Assembly (NCBI RefSeq): GCF_006385175.1
Contig: NZ_VFIY01000005.1
Coordinates: 565,501 to 629,500, forward strand
Direction: 5' to 3'
Origin: Emcibacter nanhaiensis
GTDB taxonomy: Bacteria > Pseudomonadota > Alphaproteobacteria > Sphingomonadales > Emcibacteraceae
Length of the DNA stretch: 64,000 nt
The position numbers and the translations under genes are program-made. The notes below the pieces were generated by a model. It saw only the letters and a program-made list of their open reading frames with translations. It made no database searches and was not told the origin of the DNA. This document shows, one piece after another, positions 17,450 through 25,219 of this stretch (the stretch's first letter is position 1; the number at the start of each line of letters is the position of its first letter).

Positions 17450-17637
17450 AGCCGCCCGCGGTCGGACGGCGGTGTCTCAATCTTGCCTTAATCGTATCGT
17501 TATAATGTAACCCTTCGGTCGGGATGGCCGCAGAGGTGCTGATGGAGCGAATTTGTCTAAAATTTTATGAGATTGTTTACAACCTTTTTAGATGTTCCAT
17601 TTACAGTTCAAGATACCAGACAAGTTGAGTTGGAATA

Positions 17638-17731
17638 TCTCTGGTGACAATGGCAAACCGTCGGCAACGGCGGGACGCAAAACCACTGGTCCCTGAACAG
17701 GCTCAGGGATAGCAGGGCTGCCGCAAGGAGA
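17638..17731 (+). ncRNA. Cyclic-di-GMP-I (GEMM-I) riboswitch
   Basis: The core matches the GEMM-I consensus position by position. GGCAAACC at 17652-17659 is followed by the four-base-pair stem GTCG/CGGC closed by a GCAA GNRA tetraloop, then GGGACGCAAA at 17672-17681. A second hairpin CCCTGA/TCAGGG (17691-17706) follows, and TAGCAGGGCTGCC at 17710-17722 matches the conserved 3' strand. Spacing between GGCAAACC and GGGACGCAAA is identical to the Vibrio cholerae Vc2 aptamer, and the stem differs by compensatory changes. The aptamer ends only a few bases before the AAGGAG of the next ORF, and TCTC 17638-17641 could pair with GAGA 17728-17731, so a translational switch is plausible (inference). 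Confidence 0.9.
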
Positions 17732-17738
17732 CATGAAG

Positions 17739-17912
17739 ATGGCACGCAGTAAAATGACAACAGAATTTTCAGCCAAAGACGATTTTGAGTACAAACAGGA
17801 ACTGGCTTACCAGATGGTAAAAAGATTCGGCCTGGCCGCCGCCCGCCAGACCTGTATTGAAAACAGATGGCACGGCGTTCTTGAAGCCGTGAATTCCGTA
17901 CGTACCCATTAG
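17739..17912 (+). CDS. Small unknown protein under c-di-GMP riboswitch control
   Basis: A 57-codon ORF directly after the riboswitch. ATG 17739 lies eight bases from AAGGAG (17725-17730), ideal spacing; an in-frame ATG at 17733 is too close. The product begins MARSKMTTEFSAKDDFEYKQ and continues with an amphipathic segment containing LAYQMVKRFGLAAARQTCIEN and a Trp-His pair. No signal peptide or membrane helix is seen, so it is probably cytosolic. I do not recognise the family. A strong terminator 80 bases downstream makes this a single-gene unit, so this small protein is the evident target of the riboswitch. Confidence 0.75.
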   Translation: MARSKMTTEFSAKDDFEYKQELAYQMVKRFGLAAARQTCIENRWHGVLEAVNSVRTH

Positions 17913-17990
17913 TAGAGGGGCGTTCACTTGGTTTAACCGGGGCGGCTGAGTGGTGTCGTGCCGGCAGCCTTTCGGCAGGTAAAATGTGGG

Positions 17991-18022
17991 AAGCAGCACC
18001 TTCGGGCGTGCTGCTTTTTTTA
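17991..18022 (+). terminator. Intrinsic terminator after the riboswitch gene
   Basis: AAGCAGCAC and GTGCTGCTT form a nine-base-pair stem around a CTTCGGGC loop, followed by a run of seven T and TATTTT. It closes the riboswitch/small-ORF transcription unit. Confidence 0.9.
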
Positions 18023-18510
18023 TTTTGACGTTGTTCAGGCGGGACTAATGGATCGGAATGATTCTTTCCCGCGAAGCGTCCTGTTTAAAATTTATTTCGC
18101 AAAACAGGGCCCGGAGCTCCATCTTTTGCGCGGGAATGGGCCCGTGTTTTGAGGTGACCGGGATGGTTTTGGGCATTTTATTTTTCAAGCTAACACACTG
18201 AAAAAATGTAATTATTGCCATTATTGACAGGCTGCCTGGGGGTGCCCTTTATGGTTTCAAAATTATAAAATATAGTTTTTTTTAGGTTTGCTACTAAGCA
18301 GGTCTTGAAAAGCATGCAGTTTTTGGGATAGTGTGACGCACAGTCTGTGAGGTGTAGGTCCGGATCGTCGGGCCAAAAAATAAATACGGACATAAAAAAG
18401 CTCAGCAAGAGTGACCGTATTTAGCGGATTAAATTGTTTTAAGACTCTTCTTATTCGAGACCATCGGATAAAAGGAGGGCTTATTTAGAATTGTGTACAA
18501 GGGGACGAGT
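18023..18510. other. Intergenic stretch without recognisable gene
   Basis: About 490 AT-rich bases between the terminator and the TonB operon. No convincing reading frame with a ribosome binding site is seen on either strand. A TTGACA at about 18223 and several A/T runs could belong to a promoter, but no matching -10 element at good spacing is clear. It probably contains the promoter of the TonB operon near its right end. Confidence 0.4.
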
Positions 18511-18659: not shown

Positions 18660-19445
18660 ATGATTAAGCACCGAGTAAGAACTATAGTTCTTTCCGCCGC
18701 TGCTGCTGGAGCCCTTGTTCTGGGCATTGGCGCTGCGGGTGCAACCGAGTTGCAGGATGTCCTCAAGGAAGGCGAAGCTGCAAACAAGATTGCACAGGAG
18801 TCACAAAAACGCATCGACGGAATTGTTGAAGAAACCGACAAAATTGTCGCCCAATACAAAGCCGTTGTTAAAACTGTCGAAGGTCTGAAGATCTATAATG
18901 CTCAGTTGCAGCGTCAGATTGACAACCAGAAAGCCATGATGGAAGACCTGAATGCCTCCATCAAACAGGTTACCTATGTGAAGCGTCAGATTACGCCGAC
19001 CATGGTGAAAATGGTTGATGCTCTGGAGCAGTTCGTGAAGCACGACATTCCGTTCCAGAAACAGACACGTCTCGATTCCATTGAACGCCTGAAAGAGCTG
19101 ATGGATGATCCGTCTGTGGACGCTTCCGAGAAATTCCGCAGCGTGTTCGAGGCTTATCAGATCGAGAGCGATTACGGTCGCGCCCTCGTATCCTATACCG
19201 ACTCCATCGATGTTGACGGAACTTCCCGCGAGGTTGAGTTCCTGCAGATCGGTCGCGTGGCTCTGGTATACCAAACCAAAGACGGAAAAATTTCCGGCGC
19301 CTGGAATAAAGATACCAAGCAGTTCGAAATTCTGCCTGATTCTTACAATTCCTCCATTGCTCAGGCTCTGAAAGTGGCAAACAAACAGGCTGCTGCTGAC
19401 AGGCTCCTGAAACTTCCCATTCTGGCACCGGAGCAGGCGAAATGA
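18660..19445 (+). CDS. DUF3450 periplasmic coiled-coil protein of TonB operon
   Basis: A 261-residue exported protein with a signal peptide (about residues 1-28, ending AAGATE) and a long alpha-helical coiled coil from about 30 to 110 (repeated Gln/Glu/Lys heptads, e.g. IYNAQLQRQIDNQKAMMEDL). The C-terminal part with DYGRALVSYTDSIDVDG and FLQIGRVALVYQT is the conserved DUF3450 region. The family is almost always the first gene of TtpC-type TonB operons, but its mechanism is not established; a periplasmic scaffold for the ExbB-like partner is likely. Its stop overlaps the next start by four bases. Confidence 0.9.
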   Translation: MIKHRVRTIVLSAAAAGALVLGIGAAGATELQDVLKEGEAANKIAQESQKRIDGIVEETDKIVAQYKAVVKTVEGLKIYNAQLQRQIDNQKAMMEDLNASIKQVTYVKRQITPTMVKMVDALEQFVKHDIPFQKQTRLDSIERLKELMDDPSVDASEKFRSVFEAYQIESDYGRALVSYTDSIDVDGTSREVEFLQIGRVALVYQTKDGKISGAWNKDTKQFEILPDSYNSSIAQALKVANKQAAADRLLKLPILAPEQAK

Positions 19446-20815
19446 AGAAACTGATTACAATTATTCTTGCTGTTGCTTTTGGCGGACTTGCCGCAACAGC
19501 TTCGGCCCAGCAGCCGGCCCAGAACCTGGACGAGCTCCTGGAAATGGTTAAACAGGGCAAGATCAACGAGACTGCCGAACATCGCAAGCGTGAACAGGAA
19601 TTTCTGGCCCGCAAGGCAGACCAGCAGAAACTGCTGCAGCAGGCTGAAGCTGAACAGCGCGCCGAAGAGCGTCGCTCCGATCGCCTGGAAGCTGAATTCA
19701 ACGCCAATGAAGAAAAGCTGGCCCAGCTCCAGGAAGAGCTGTCCAACGAACTCGGTGCCCTGAAGGAACTGTTCGGTGTGCTGCAGCAGGTATCCGGTGA
19801 TGCCCGCGGTATCTTCGACGCTTCCATCATCAGCGCCCAGTATCCGAACCGTGAGGAATTCCTGGATGAGCTGATTCAGAAAACCGCTTCCAGCTCCAAA
19901 CTGCCGACCATCGAGGAAATCGAGCGTCTGTGGTACGAAGTTCAGCGTGAAATGACTGAATCCGGCAAGGTGGTTAAGTTCAACACCACCGTTCAGTATC
20001 CGGACGGTTCCACCGAAGACAAGGAAGTTGTCCGTGTCGGTACGTTTAACCTGGTGTCTGACGGCAAATACCTGGAGTGGAGCGCCGGTGCAAAACGTGT
20101 GAGCGAACTGGTGCGCCAGCCGGCTGAGCGTTTCCGGAGCACTGTGTCCGACCTGCAGTCAGCAACCGATGGCTTCACTGCCTTCGCGCTTGACCCGTCA
20201 CGCGGTTCAATCCTGGCCCTGCTGATCCAGACACCGTCCATCGGCGAGCGTATTGACCAGGGTGGTACCATTGGTTACCTGATTCTTGCAATCGGTGCAG
20301 TCGGCCTGCTGCTGATCATCTATTGCTTCGTGACCCTGTTCTCTGCCAACAGCAAGGTTAAAAAGCAGATCCGCAGCGATGTGGTCAGCACAGACAACCC
20401 GCTTGGCCGTGTGCTCAGTGTATATGACGCCAACAAAACCGTTGACGTTGAAACTCTCGAACTGAAACTGGATGAAGCCATTCTGAAAGAGACACCTGCT
20501 CTCGAGCGCTTCCTGGTTATGATCAAAATCATCTCCGCCGTTGCCCCGCTCATGGGTCTGCTCGGTACGGTGACCGGTATGATCGTGACCTTCCAGTCCA
20601 TGACCCTGTTCGGTACAGGTGATCCGAAACTGATGGCTGGTGGTATCTCTCAGGCTCTTATGACAACCGTGCTTGGTATCGTGGTGGCTCTGCCGACCCT
20701 GTTCCTGCACAGTGTTGTTGCAGGCATGAGCAAGCGGGTGATCCATACTCTGGAAGAACAGAGTGCCGGTATCATCGCCGTTCATGCAGAGCAGCAGTCC
20801 GGTAAAGGAGCCTGA
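19442..20815 (+). CDS. ttpC: Long ExbB-like protein TtpC (MotA/TolQ/ExbB family)
   Basis: A 457-residue protein made of a signal peptide (about 1-22, ending TASAQ), a large periplasmic part with a coiled coil (about residues 45-115, Glu/Arg/Gln-rich), and a C-terminal MotA/TolQ/ExbB channel domain. The channel domain has three membrane segments, around 278-302, 360-385 (PLMGLLGTVTGMIVTFQSM) and 400-430. This architecture matches TtpC of Vibrio TonB2 systems, where it works with ExbB2-ExbD2-TonB2. It lies two bases before the short exbB. Confidence 0.9.
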   Translation: MKKLITIILAVAFGGLAATASAQQPAQNLDELLEMVKQGKINETAEHRKREQEFLARKADQQKLLQQAEAEQRAEERRSDRLEAEFNANEEKLAQLQEELSNELGALKELFGVLQQVSGDARGIFDASIISAQYPNREEFLDELIQKTASSSKLPTIEEIERLWYEVQREMTESGKVVKFNTTVQYPDGSTEDKEVVRVGTFNLVSDGKYLEWSAGAKRVSELVRQPAERFRSTVSDLQSATDGFTAFALDPSRGSILALLIQTPSIGERIDQGGTIGYLILAIGAVGLLLIIYCFVTLFSANSKVKKQIRSDVVSTDNPLGRVLSVYDANKTVDVETLELKLDEAILKETPALERFLVMIKIISAVAPLMGLLGTVTGMIVTFQSMTLFGTGDPKLMAGGISQALMTTVLGIVVALPTLFLHSVVAGMSKRVIHTLEEQSAGIIAVHAEQQSGKGA

Positions 20816-20817
20816 TC

Positions 20818-21345
20818 ATGACGCCCCTGATTGAAGCATTCGAGTTGGTGCGGGATTTTATGGAACGGGGTGGCCCGATCCTGACCTGGATCTTTCTCGT
20901 AATCACCTTGATCTGGGGGCTGGTTTTCGAGCGTCTGGTATATTTCAAAACCGGACATCGCAAGCAAGTGAATGAAGTAATGGGAACCTGGGAAGCTCGC
21001 ACCGAGCGGACTTCCTGGTTCGCCCACAAAATTCGCGAAGCTATGATCAGCCAGGTGACCATGGACCTGCGAGGCACAATCCCCCTGATTAAAACTCTGG
21101 TGGCTGTGTGTCCTCTCCTGGGTCTTCTGGGTACCGTAACCGGAATGATTGAGGTCTTCGACGTGATGGCCCTGTTGGGAAGCGGTAATGTACGCGCCAT
21201 GGCGGCGGGTGTATCCAAAGCCACGATCCCGACAATGGCCGGAATGATCGGTGCCCTGTCCGGCGTGTTTGCCTCCTCTTACCTGGAGAACCGCGCCAAC
21301 AAGGAAGCCGAAATGCTCGAAGATCACTTAACTATGGATCATTAA
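20818..21345 (+). CDS. exbB: ExbB-type proton channel subunit
   Basis: A 175-residue short MotA/TolQ/ExbB protein with three membrane helices (about residues 18-38, 95-120 and 135-160). The family core VCPLLGLLGTVTGMIEVF and AGMIGALSGVFASSYLENRA are intact. With ExbD it forms the proton channel that energises TonB. It is considerably shorter than classical ExbB and typical of ExbB2. It follows ttpC by two bases and precedes exbD by nine. Confidence 0.94.
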   Translation: MTPLIEAFELVRDFMERGGPILTWIFLVITLIWGLVFERLVYFKTGHRKQVNEVMGTWEARTERTSWFAHKIREAMISQVTMDLRGTIPLIKTLVAVCPLLGLLGTVTGMIEVFDVMALLGSGNVRAMAAGVSKATIPTMAGMIGALSGVFASSYLENRANKEAEMLEDHLTMDH

Positions 21346-21354
21346 GAGAGAGCC

Positions 21355-21756
21355 ATGCGAAAACATGCTGCAAAAAGTCAGGATGATGCAACTATCGATA
21401 TGACGCCGATGCTCGACATCGTGTTTATCATGCTCATCTTTTTTATTGTAACGGCAGCCTTTGTAAAAGAGGCCGGTATCGACGTAAACCGGCCTCAATC
21501 CTTAACCGCTGTGCCTCAGACCAAGGCGAACATCATGATTGCGGTCAGCAGTCAGAATGAAGTCTGGATGCAGAAGAAACGCGTTGACGTGCGGGCAATC
21601 CGTGCCAACGTGGAGCGGCTGCGGGCGGAAAACCCGGAAGGAACAGTGGTGATCCAGGCCGACAGGGAAGCCAAGGCCGGTATCATGACAGACGTTGTTG
21701 ATGCCGTTCGGGCCGCCGGCGTAATGGATTACGTAGTATCGACGAGGGAACAATGA
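21355..21756 (+). CDS. exbD: ExbD/TolR family protein
   Basis: A 133-residue single-span protein. The helix with the essential protonatable Asp is DMTPMLDIVFIMLIFFIVTA (Asp21), followed by a periplasmic domain ending in VVIQADREAKAGIMTDVVDA. It uses proton flow to drive TonB. GAGAGAGCC precedes the start. The 3' end overlaps tonB by four bases. Confidence 0.95.
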   Translation: MRKHAAKSQDDATIDMTPMLDIVFIMLIFFIVTAAFVKEAGIDVNRPQSLTAVPQTKANIMIAVSSQNEVWMQKKRVDVRAIRANVERLRAENPEGTVVIQADREAKAGIMTDVVDAVRAAGVMDYVVSTREQ

Positions 21757-22358
21757 TAGCAAGATATACAGTAGCGTTTGGATTCGCCGTTCTGGTTACT
21801 TTTGCGTTGTTCTTCGCGATGCAGTTGCTGATTGCGATGAGCGGAAAGCCGAATACCCAGAAAGGTGTGAATATTCGCGTCGAGATCGCGGATGTTCGTA
21901 AGGCCCGTGAGGTGGAACAGAAAGTCCGCAAGCCGGACAAACCTGAAGAGGTTGAAACTCCGCCGGAAACCCCCGACATCGAGATGGATACCAACCTGAA
22001 CAGCGTTCAGACCGGTTTTGAAATCGGTGCAGCCCAGGTTGATACAGGTATCCAGGTGGCTGGTACAGGCGGCTTTGCTGCCAGTGACGGTGACTATCTG
22101 CCGATCGTTAAAGTGGCGCCGGTTTATCCGCGTCGCGCTGCGGAACGCGGTATCGAGGGCTATGTGATTCTTGAATTTACAGTGACCAAGAACGGTACGG
22201 TGAAAGATATTGTTGTTGTGGAAACCACCAGCAGTCTGTTCAACCGCGCCGCCATCAAGGCCGCCGAGAAATTCAAGTACAAACCCAAAGTGGTTGACGG
22301 CCAGCCGGTAGATGTTGCCGGCGTGCTGCACAAAATCACATTTGAACTCGAGAAGTAG
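21753..22358 (+). CDS. tonB: Energy transducer TonB
   Basis: A 201-residue protein with an N-terminal membrane anchor (about residues 8-28), a short acidic/proline linker (PEEVETPPETPDIEMD) and a C-terminal TonB domain (about 115-201) with VAPVYPRRAAERGIEGYVILEF and KYKPKVVDGQPVDVAGV. The linker is much shorter than in enterobacterial TonB, as is usual for TonB2-type proteins. It passes energy from the ExbB/ExbD/TtpC complex to outer-membrane receptors, none of which is in this window. Confidence 0.94.
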   Translation: MIARYTVAFGFAVLVTFALFFAMQLLIAMSGKPNTQKGVNIRVEIADVRKAREVEQKVRKPDKPEEVETPPETPDIEMDTNLNSVQTGFEIGAAQVDTGIQVAGTGGFAASDGDYLPIVKVAPVYPRRAAERGIEGYVILEFTVTKNGTVKDIVVVETTSSLFNRAAIKAAEKFKYKPKVVDGQPVDVAGVLHKITFELEK

Positions 22359-22373
22359 AGAGGAGGAGTCGTA

Positions 22374-23765
22374 ATGACCATGAGTAATTTTGCGAAGACC
22401 CTTTTCTCCGCTTCAGCATTGTCTGCTGCTCTGCTGGTTGCGCCGGTAACCGCGTCTCTGACCGGTCAGGCCGTGGCAGCGGAGAAGGAAGAAAGCAAAT
22501 ACGCCACCCGCAAAACCCGCAAAACTCCGGCCATGCGCCTGAAAGTGGGGAATGCCCTTGGTGAAGCCCAGGCATTTGCCGAACAGGAAAACTGGGCGGA
22601 AGCCGAGAAGGTTCTTGAAAAGGAGCTGGGATCCAAGCTTGATAGCCTGAACAGCTATGAGCGGGCTCAGTATTACAACTTCAAGGGTTTCCTGGCCTAC
22701 AGCAAGGAAGACTATAACGGCGCCATTACGGCATATAACAATGTACTGCGTCAGGAAAACCTGCCGCCGGCCCTGGAAGACAATGTGATCTATACCATGG
22801 CCCAGCTGTACTTTGTGATGGAGGACTATCAGAAGTCCATCGACTATATGAACCGCTGGATGGAGTATCAGGAAGCACCGAGCGAAAATGCCCTGGTGAT
22901 TCTTGGCCAGGCCTATTATTCGCTGGGTGACAAGAAGAATGATAAGTCCTACTACAAGAAGGGTATTCCCTATATTGAGCAGGCTATCAAGATGTACCAG
23001 GACAAGGGTAAAGAGCCCAAGGAAAACTGGTACCTTCTGCTTCGTGTGATGTATTTCGAACTCAAGGACTATCGGACTGTAACCGATATTCTCGAGCTTC
23101 TGGTCAGCAAATGGCCGAAGAAGGAATACTGGATCCAGCTGGCCGGGATGTATGGTGAACTTGCCAACCAGCCTGGCGTCGGCAAAAAAGAGCGCGATGA
23201 GCTGGAGAAGGAGCAGTTGACTGTTTACGAAACGGCTTATCGTCAGGGGTTCCTGAAGAAGGAATCCGAACTGGTGAATATGTCCCAGCTGTTCATGTAT
23301 CATGAAATTCCCTACAAGTCCTCCAAGGTTCTGGACAAGGGCATCAAGGAAGGGACTGTAGAGAAAACCAAGAAGAACTGGGAATATCTGTCCCAGGCCT
23401 TCATCAACGGCCAGGACTACCAGAAAGCCCTGATGCCGCTGCGTAGGGCAGCGGAACTGTCCGGGGACGGTGATCTCTATATGCGTCTGGGCCAGGTCTA
23501 CATGCAGCTGGATGACTACGAAAATGCGGCCAAATTCATCGGTCTTGCCATCGACAAAGGCAAGCTGAAACGTGAAGACACCGCACATGTAGTCCGCGGC
23601 ATGGCTTACTTCAACCTTGGACAGCTGGACAAGGCCCGCAAGGAATTTGAAGAAGCGCGCAAGTTCGAGCGCAGCCGCAAGATGGCCAACAAGTGGATTT
23701 CCTATCTGTCTAAAGAAGCCAAACGGCTTGCAGACATCAAGGAGTTCCTTGGCGGCAAGAGCTGA
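22374..23765 (+). CDS. Exported tetratricopeptide protein of TonB operon
   Basis: A 463-residue protein with a signal peptide (about 1-35, ending GQAVAAE) and at least six TPR-like helical repeats, for example around residues 75-110 (YYNFKGFLAYSKEDYNGAI), 135-165 and 365-425 (LYMRLGQVYMQLDDYENAA). The start at 22374 follows GAGGAGGAGTCGTA. Such TPR genes regularly end TtpC/TonB2 operons; a periplasmic scaffold or receptor-coupling role is inferred. It is followed by a strong terminator, so it closes the six-gene operon. Confidence 0.88.
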   Translation: MTMSNFAKTLFSASALSAALLVAPVTASLTGQAVAAEKEESKYATRKTRKTPAMRLKVGNALGEAQAFAEQENWAEAEKVLEKELGSKLDSLNSYERAQYYNFKGFLAYSKEDYNGAITAYNNVLRQENLPPALEDNVIYTMAQLYFVMEDYQKSIDYMNRWMEYQEAPSENALVILGQAYYSLGDKKNDKSYYKKGIPYIEQAIKMYQDKGKEPKENWYLLLRVMYFELKDYRTVTDILELLVSKWPKKEYWIQLAGMYGELANQPGVGKKERDELEKEQLTVYETAYRQGFLKKESELVNMSQLFMYHEIPYKSSKVLDKGIKEGTVEKTKKNWEYLSQAFINGQDYQKALMPLRRAAELSGDGDLYMRLGQVYMQLDDYENAAKFIGLAIDKGKLKREDTAHVVRGMAYFNLGQLDKARKEFEEARKFERSRKMANKWISYLSKEAKRLADIKEFLGGKS

Positions 23766-23814: not shown

Positions 23815-23989
23815 TGCCTGCAGCGGGGAAACGGGCGGTTTTAAACCTGCAGACTGTCCGGCAATATTCAGAATACTTGATCCTGCAAAATAACTCATTT
23901 ATCGTAACGGGATAACACCGGGGCAATTGCGAAACAGAGGGGATGTAATCCGCCATCGTCTGCAGCCAGCAGGTCCGAACCAACGGATT

Positions 23990-25219
23990 ATGAGACAGTA
24001 TATGAATATTTTGGCGCATATTCTGATTTTGGCAAGTTATGCCGTTGTTGCCGTTCTGGTCTATCTCGTCAGTCCCGAAATCTTTACGTCGATGGCGCCG
24101 GGAACATCGATGGTGCTGGGCGCCGCAGTATTTCTGGTTTCCATGCAGTTGCATGGTCTCTATATCTTCCGTATGGGGCGGCAGGATATGGCCAGCAGGC
24201 TGATGGACCTGCATCAGGATTACCAGATGAGCCTTGACCGGCTCGAGGAAGTGCGGCTCGAACTGCAGAAACATGAAGAGAAGATCAACCGCGCCGACTT
24301 CAGCCAGAATGCGGAAATCATTTCCGAGATGCGGGTCCTGCAGACCCTGCTGAACCAGGTGGTGGAGAAATCCGGCAAACGGCTCACCGATCATGTGGCG
24401 AATGAGGAGCTCGCCCGCCAGATTTCCTCCAGTTCGCTGGGGACGGGACTGGCAGACCAGGAAGGCCGGGATCGCAGCGATGAGGAGATCCTGCGGATCA
24501 TGCATTACGCGCTGGAGGACAACAGGGTGGACCTGTACCTGCAGCCCATCGTCGCTCTGCCGTCCCGGCGGGTGGTCTATTTCGAGGCCTATTCCCGGGT
24601 GCGCGACGAACGCGACAATGTGATCTTTCCCAGTCAGTATATTCAGCTGGCGGAAGACAGCGGTCTGGTGGGCACGCTGGATAATTTATTGCTGTTCCGC
24701 TGTATCCAGGTCATCCGCCGGCTTGGGCCGCGTAAACCTGACCTGCGCTTCTTCTGCAATATTTCTTCCGTCTCCCTCAATGACCAGGAATTTTTCCCGC
24801 AGTTCATTGACTTCATGCTCGAGAACCACGAACTGGCGGACCGGCTGGTGTTTGAATTTTCGCAACAGGATGTGATGCGGCATTCGGCGACGGTCGCCCG
24901 CAGCCTGGCCTCCCTCGGGCGGCGCGGCTTCCGGTTTTCCATGGACAAGGTTTTTGACTATAATATTGATCTCGGCGACCTGGCGTCCCGCTATTTCCGT
25001 TATGTGAAAATGGATGCCGGCGCCTTGCTGGAGCAGGAAGCGGATATTCATCCCGACGATATCAAGGAGGCCTTCGCCCGCTATGATATCGACCTGATTA
25101 TCGAGAAAATCGAAGACGAGCAGACCATTCTCGAGGTGCTCGATTTCGGCATGGACTTCGGACAGGGTTATCTGTTCGGCGAGCCCCGGCTCAGCAGCGA
25201 TCCCTCTCTCAACCTGTAA
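23990..25219 (+). CDS. Degenerate EAL-domain protein, TipF-like
   Basis: A protein of about 409 residues with two N-terminal membrane helices (ILILASYAVVAVLVYLV and MVLGAAVFLVSMQLHGLYIF), a coiled coil (about residues 65-135) and a C-terminal EAL domain. Catalytic positions are altered: EAL reads EAY (VYFEAYSRV), the usual ELTE is EFSQ, and the DDFG metal-binding loop is MDKV. The Gln of QGYLFGEP and the Asn of CNIS remain. It is therefore probably a c-di-GMP receptor rather than a phosphodiesterase. The layout and size match TipF, a flagellar placement factor of Caulobacter. ATG 23990 is my choice; MNIL at 24002 is equally possible. The cheZ-cheY pair lies convergent to it. Confidence 0.8.
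   Translation: MRQYMNILAHILILASYAVVAVLVYLVSPEIFTSMAPGTSMVLGAAVFLVSMQLHGLYIFRMGRQDMASRLMDLHQDYQMSLDRLEEVRLELQKHEEKINRADFSQNAEIISEMRVLQTLLNQVVEKSGKRLTDHVANEELARQISSSSLGTGLADQEGRDRSDEEILRIMHYALEDNRVDLYLQPIVALPSRRVVYFEAYSRVRDERDNVIFPSQYIQLAEDSGLVGTLDNLLLFRCIQVIRRLGPRKPDLRFFCNISSVSLNDQEFFPQFIDFMLENHELADRLVFEFSQQDVMRHSATVARSLASLGRRGFRFSMDKVFDYNIDLGDLASRYFRYVKMDAGALLEQEADIHPDDIKEAFARYDIDLIIEKIEDEQTILEVLDFGMDFGQGYLFGEPRLSSDPSLNL

Follow-up and report, generated by a model that had tools for sequence, protein, structure and literature searches.

A class I cyclic-di-GMP riboswitch preceding a conserved small-protein gene in Emcibacter

The leader of a small gene in Emcibacter nanhaiensis harbours a riboswitch of a known class that is both real and intact. 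It was analysed within a 64-kb stretch of the genome (the window), taken from an assembly of 3.96 Mb. We are close to certain that the element is a c-di-GMP-I (GEMM-I) aptamer, and with high confidence expect it to bind c-di-GMP in vitro. As a class I c-di-GMP riboswitch it probably controls translation of the gene that lies directly behind it. No paper on riboswitches of Emcibacter was found in the literature.

RESULTS AND DISCUSSION

The aptamer and its classification

An initial annotation of this DNA had recognized a GEMM-I core with compensatory changes in a GNRA-capped stem, and had proposed a search with the RF01051 covariance model. The sequence is as it described, and its assignment to the class I c-di-GMP riboswitches is supported by that search, which gave a score of 66.3 bits (gathering threshold 35, E = 1.3e-12 for a genome-wide search) at 17643-17726. 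In an alignment of 25 homologs, five of the six upper P2 pairs and three P3 pairs are changed on both sides; the covariation score of this alignment exceeds those of all 500 shuffles, and also those of slid controls. The interval that had been delineated, 17638-17731, comprises the aptamer core, an extended P1 and the Shine-Dalgarno sequence, and the element does adjoin the ribosome binding site as claimed, the GGAG following directly after the aptamer. As is expected of an RF01051 member, the element lies within the 5′ UTR of the small gene and shares its strand. The features are collected in Table 1.

Table 1. Features of the riboswitch and its surroundings, in window coordinates.
Feature	Position	Strand	Basis
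P1 5′ strand and extension (UCUCU G GUG), predicted to pair with 17722-17731	17638..17646	+	constrained folding; duplex -8.1 kcal/mol
P1 3′ strand and extension, including Shine-Dalgarno GGAG 17727-17730	17722..17731	+	sequence and folding
Upstream competitor arm (ACCAGA 17615-17620), predicted to pair with 17640-17646	17614..17620	+	MFE of free fold; similar hairpins in most relatives
c-di-GMP-I (GEMM-I) aptamer core	17643..17726	+	RF03167 62.6 bits; RF01051 66.3 bits; covariation in 25 homologs
G20 equivalent (Vc2 numbering), putative ligand contact	17652	+	homolog alignment, column 17
A47 equivalent, putative ligand contact	17679	+	invariant in 25/25 homologs; G in RF03167 consensus
C92 equivalent, putative ligand contact	17721	+	homolog alignment and folding
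P2 stem with GCAA (GNRA) tetraloop	17653..17678	+	covariation and folding
P3 stem	17681..17719	+	covariation and folding; P2 and P3 both in MFE fold
Small gene adjacent to riboswitch, 57 aa from ATG 17739 (59 aa from ATG 17733), predicted three-helix	17739..17912	+	
Intrinsic-terminator-like hairpin 3′ of small gene	17988..18019	+	three such sites in region, 1.6 expected by chance
TonB2-type operon: DUF3450, long ExbB (TtpC-like), ExbB, ExbD, TonB, TPR	18660-23765	+	
EAL protein, N-terminal hydrophobic stretches, divergent EAYSR motif	23927-25219	+	

The contact positions are numbered on the Vc2 sequence as it is generally known, and we take P2 of the window element to be equal in length to that of Vc2. 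The bases of Vc2 that touch the ligand are G20, A47 and C92 (PMC4744006), and judged by alignment the corresponding bases in the window are all canonical. The element thus shares with Vc2 and Vc1 of Vibrio cholerae (RF01051) the P1-P2-P3 fold, the GNRA tetraloop on P2 and the G20/A47/C92 set. It differs from them in being alphaproteobacterial and apparently governing an uncharacterised protein of ~57 aa, and in having, according to the folding model, the Shine-Dalgarno sequence within an extension of P1 together with an upstream hairpin that would compete with it.

A model for the switch

In the ligand-free RNA the 5′ strand of P1 would be paired with the upstream arm (17614-17620), so that the Shine-Dalgarno sequence would be open and the gene on. 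When c-di-GMP is bound between G20, A47 and C92 P1 would close, and pairing of its extension UCUCU (17638-17642) with GGAGA (17727-17731) would cover the Shine-Dalgarno sequence and turn the gene off. The pairings are computed; from them we infer a translational OFF switch, with moderate confidence in that direction, and its effect in the cell.

The pairings of the P1 5′ strand with the upstream arm and with the Shine-Dalgarno arm are mutually exclusive in silico. When 17600-17760 is folded freely, each base of the GGAG is unpaired with a probability of 0.58-0.95, falling to 0.03-0.04 when P1 of the aptamer is formed, all such folding energies taking no account of the ligand or of tertiary contacts. 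Of the folds computed, the longest (17560-17850) shows a smaller effect of P1 on the Shine-Dalgarno sequence. A hairpin upstream, with the P1 5′ strand as its 3′ arm, is present in most relatives. Compared with dinucleotide shuffles of the upstream region, the competitor hairpin is stronger (18 representatives; Fisher p = 4e-4, Stouffer z = -3.6), the representatives used for this and for the pairing statistics being kin, so that the p-values are optimistic.

Pairing between the P1 extension and the Shine-Dalgarno sequence has a mean z of -1.17 against shuffles of the 5′ strand, and of -0.04 (not significant) against the stricter control, shuffles of the 3′ side. It is not clearly above chance because any Shine-Dalgarno sequence is complementary to pyrimidine-rich RNA, and in relatives L005-L007, L010, L015, L024 and L025 it is weak (-1.4 to -2.5 kcal/mol). 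The OFF model is held no more firmly than stated above because the two shuffles give mixed support.

No terminator-like site was found between the aptamer and the start codon, so that control is likely to be translational and a transcriptional expression platform is not indicated. A terminator-like hairpin beyond the small gene suggests that the target of the riboswitch is monocistronic, although statistically this is weak (Table 1).

The same aptamer might instead act as an ON switch, in which the ligand frees the Shine-Dalgarno sequence or stabilizes the message. Cyclic-dinucleotide riboswitches of this scaffold act in both directions, one OFF and one ON example having been described (PMC9262584), and expression dependent on Vc1 drops as c-di-GMP drops (PMC4744006); the mixed statistics of the pairing of P1 over the Shine-Dalgarno sequence also leave room for such a mechanism. 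Yet in the window the Shine-Dalgarno sequence directly follows P1 and lies within its extension, and an upstream hairpin competing for the P1 5′ strand would open it in the absence of ligand. We therefore regard an ON switch as rather unlikely, and prefer the OFF switch.

Nine canonical GGDEF motif sites are present in the Emcibacter genome, so from its sequence the organism probably makes c-di-GMP.

Ligand specificity and the base at position 20

A scan of the whole window with cmscan gave the element a different label, RF03167 "c-di-GMP-I-GGC" (62.6 bits, E = 2.2e-12, gathering threshold 59; 17643-17726, + strand); cmscan drops overlapping members of a clan, so that only the RF03167 line is printed for the window. 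No other Rfam family reached its gathering threshold in the 64 kb. The top rank of RF03167, and the presence of A or C at position 20 in orthologs, could indicate a variant aptamer of altered ligand, either a "GGC" variant or a sensor of cGAMP. We found no paper on the meaning of the suffix GGC; it presumably denotes the bases at positions 20, 47 and 92 (G20/G47/C92). The window element resembles RF03167 in its score above gathering and in a similar P1 and J1/2, but the family consensus has G47 where the window element and 25/25 homologs have A47. Because the contact bases are canonical and the RF01051 score is higher than that for RF03167, plain c-di-GMP-I is the better name for the element. 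For the window copy A47, G20 and the higher RF01051 score led us to reject the altered ligand that the RF03167 label might imply.

An adenine at position 20 marks the cGAMP-sensing GEMM-I members. The G20A change allows cGAMP to be bound (PMC6274999). The cGAMP riboswitches of Geobacter (GEMM-Ib, A20) have the same scaffold, and A20 is found in 8 of the 25 homologous elements. By contrast the window element has G20, as has the other copy in the Emcibacter genome, and no signature of cGAMP synthesis was found in 22 of the genomes in which these homologs occur. No SMODS cyclase was found in them. A search for the D-to-S/T Hypr motif, a crude test applied to genomes several of which are incomplete, gave four hits, none of which was a GGDEF protein on translation, while the canonical GGDEF motif used as positive control was present in 22/22. 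A variant aptamer with another ligand is thus very unlikely in the window.

Whereas A47 is invariant in the 25 homologs, 15 of them have G at position 20, 8 have A (L016 and L022 among them) and 2 have C (L021 and L025). It is G in 25/26 other readable alphaproteobacterial elements, the exception being L134. We know of no description of the C20 form. In a tree of flanking sequences, several nodes of which are poorly supported, the A and C forms are not single clades, and a G/A difference also separates L012 and L023, members of another family; from these comparisons the change at position 20 probably arose several times. Base 20 in GEMM-I RNA is a selectivity factor and not a hard filter (PMC9262584). 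Synthesis of cGAMP was considered as an explanation of the A20 copies and rejected, given the lack of a synthase signature in the 22 genomes; for the same reason a tuning or partial loss of affinity for c-di-GMP seems likelier than a new ligand for the A20 and C20 forms. Tentatively, the repeated changes from G to A and from G to C in the Emcibacteraceae and their relatives might constitute a natural series of aptamers that differ in affinity or in choice of ligand, all controlling the conserved small protein, possibly a c-di-GMP-governed partner of the TonB2-type system.

A chance match or a decayed, functionless aptamer, which would accord with a minimum free energy of the region only modestly below that of shuffles (z = -1.5), is extremely improbable against an E value of ~1e-12, the retention of the orthologous position in many genomes with compensatory changes, and two intact copies in the Emcibacter genome.

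Distribution of the riboswitch

The second copy in the Emcibacter genome (C4:27173-27252, 65.3 bits) has the same G20/A47/C92 set, and lies just 5′ of a gene whose 140-aa product carries a flagellar rod C-terminal domain. Matches to RF03167 were obtained in 25/151 genomes of the order; L027 and L028 lacked the core and were discarded, and 25 clear elements were kept. In 22 of these 25 the gene that follows encodes a small-protein ortholog; the remaining three are placed before the flagellar rod-like gene just mentioned (L001), a gene for a secreted, P-domain subtilase (L009) and a 65-aa open reading frame (L026). One genus of the family (g4) retains the small protein at the corresponding locus with no aptamer in the leader, so the switch can be lost, or was gained, while the gene persists. 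Another block, rich in AT (ATTAAAATTGTA...TTTAC...TTTATAT), is conserved among the g4 leaders (L031-L036, L041, L042, L046).

Above-threshold matches to RF01051 occur in 33/385 sampled genomes of Alphaproteobacteria, distributed over 15 families, and therefore GEMM-I is uncommon but established in this class. The initial annotation, which placed most described GEMM-I elements in Deltaproteobacteria, Vibrio and Firmicutes, is weaker on this point: such an element is not exceptional in an alphaproteobacterium. The genes that follow these elements include those for ParA-like ATPases, PilZ proteins and response regulators. In another alphaproteobacterium (L118) two aptamers lie ~500 nt apart on one contig (G344:C238:625-701 and 1122-1201), one of them directly before a PilZ-like gene. 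No viral contig matched the pattern of the aptamer core.

The small protein

The small protein probably begins at ATG 17739 (57 aa) and not at ATG 17733 (59 aa), a correction of the start that is favoured by the 8-nt spacing from the GGAG and by a matching methionine at the beginning of its homologs in relatives. It belongs to no Pfam or NCBIfam family, and has neither a sequence relative nor a fold match in the PDB. AlphaFold2 with 19 homologs predicts three helices (mean pLDDT 78). Homologs were found in 39/61 relatives and in 19/385 Alphaproteobacteria; the named carriers are Emcibacter and Emcibacteraceae MAGs, with more distant ones of Kordiimonas type. None was found on the plasmids searched. 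Two further paralogs are present in the Emcibacter genome, L154 (G000:C16:10306) and L157 (G000:C5:350055), with no TonB2 genes within 3 kb of either.

The neighbouring TonB2-type operon and EAL gene

The motility genes that had been reported beside the element are a TonB2-type operon and a divergent EAL gene, the MotA_ExbB and ExbD genes of the operon not being motility stators; a link with motility holds for the second copy, which precedes the flagellar rod-like gene. In most of the order a DUF3450-ExbB-ExbB-ExbD-TonB-TPR operon lies 0.65-0.9 kb 3′ of the small gene. The TonB2 operon of Vibrio vulnificus, ordered ttpB2-ttpC2-exbB2-exbD2-tonB2-ttpD2 (PMC6957404), has the same gene order, but in the window a small gene, apparently under riboswitch control, lies upstream, with a terminator-like site and ~0.7 kb between. 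Within the ~0.75 kb that separates the small gene from the DUF3450 gene there is a block of ~70-90 nt (18262-18354) that is ~76% conserved in relatives; it has no match in Rfam, and is possibly the promoter or leader of the operon.

An EAL gene lies 3′ of the operon. The closest PDB sequence to its EAL domain is that of a c-di-GMP binding protein (3pjt), and its motif is EAYSR in place of EALxR, so the protein may act as a receptor, perhaps of the TipF or LapD kind, and not as an enzyme. In another family (L075, L103, L104) the small gene is followed, in place of the operon, by an EAL gene related to that of the window.

Significance

With this element the class I c-di-GMP riboswitches gain a further well-formed member, from outside the best-studied lineages. 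It flags a conserved small protein that had escaped annotation as a likely target of c-di-GMP, beside an operon for TonB2-type energy transduction. The orthologs form a natural set of G20, A20 and C20 aptamers on an otherwise similar RNA, suited to the question of how a change in the specificity base is tolerated, or put to use, by a riboswitch that keeps its gene.
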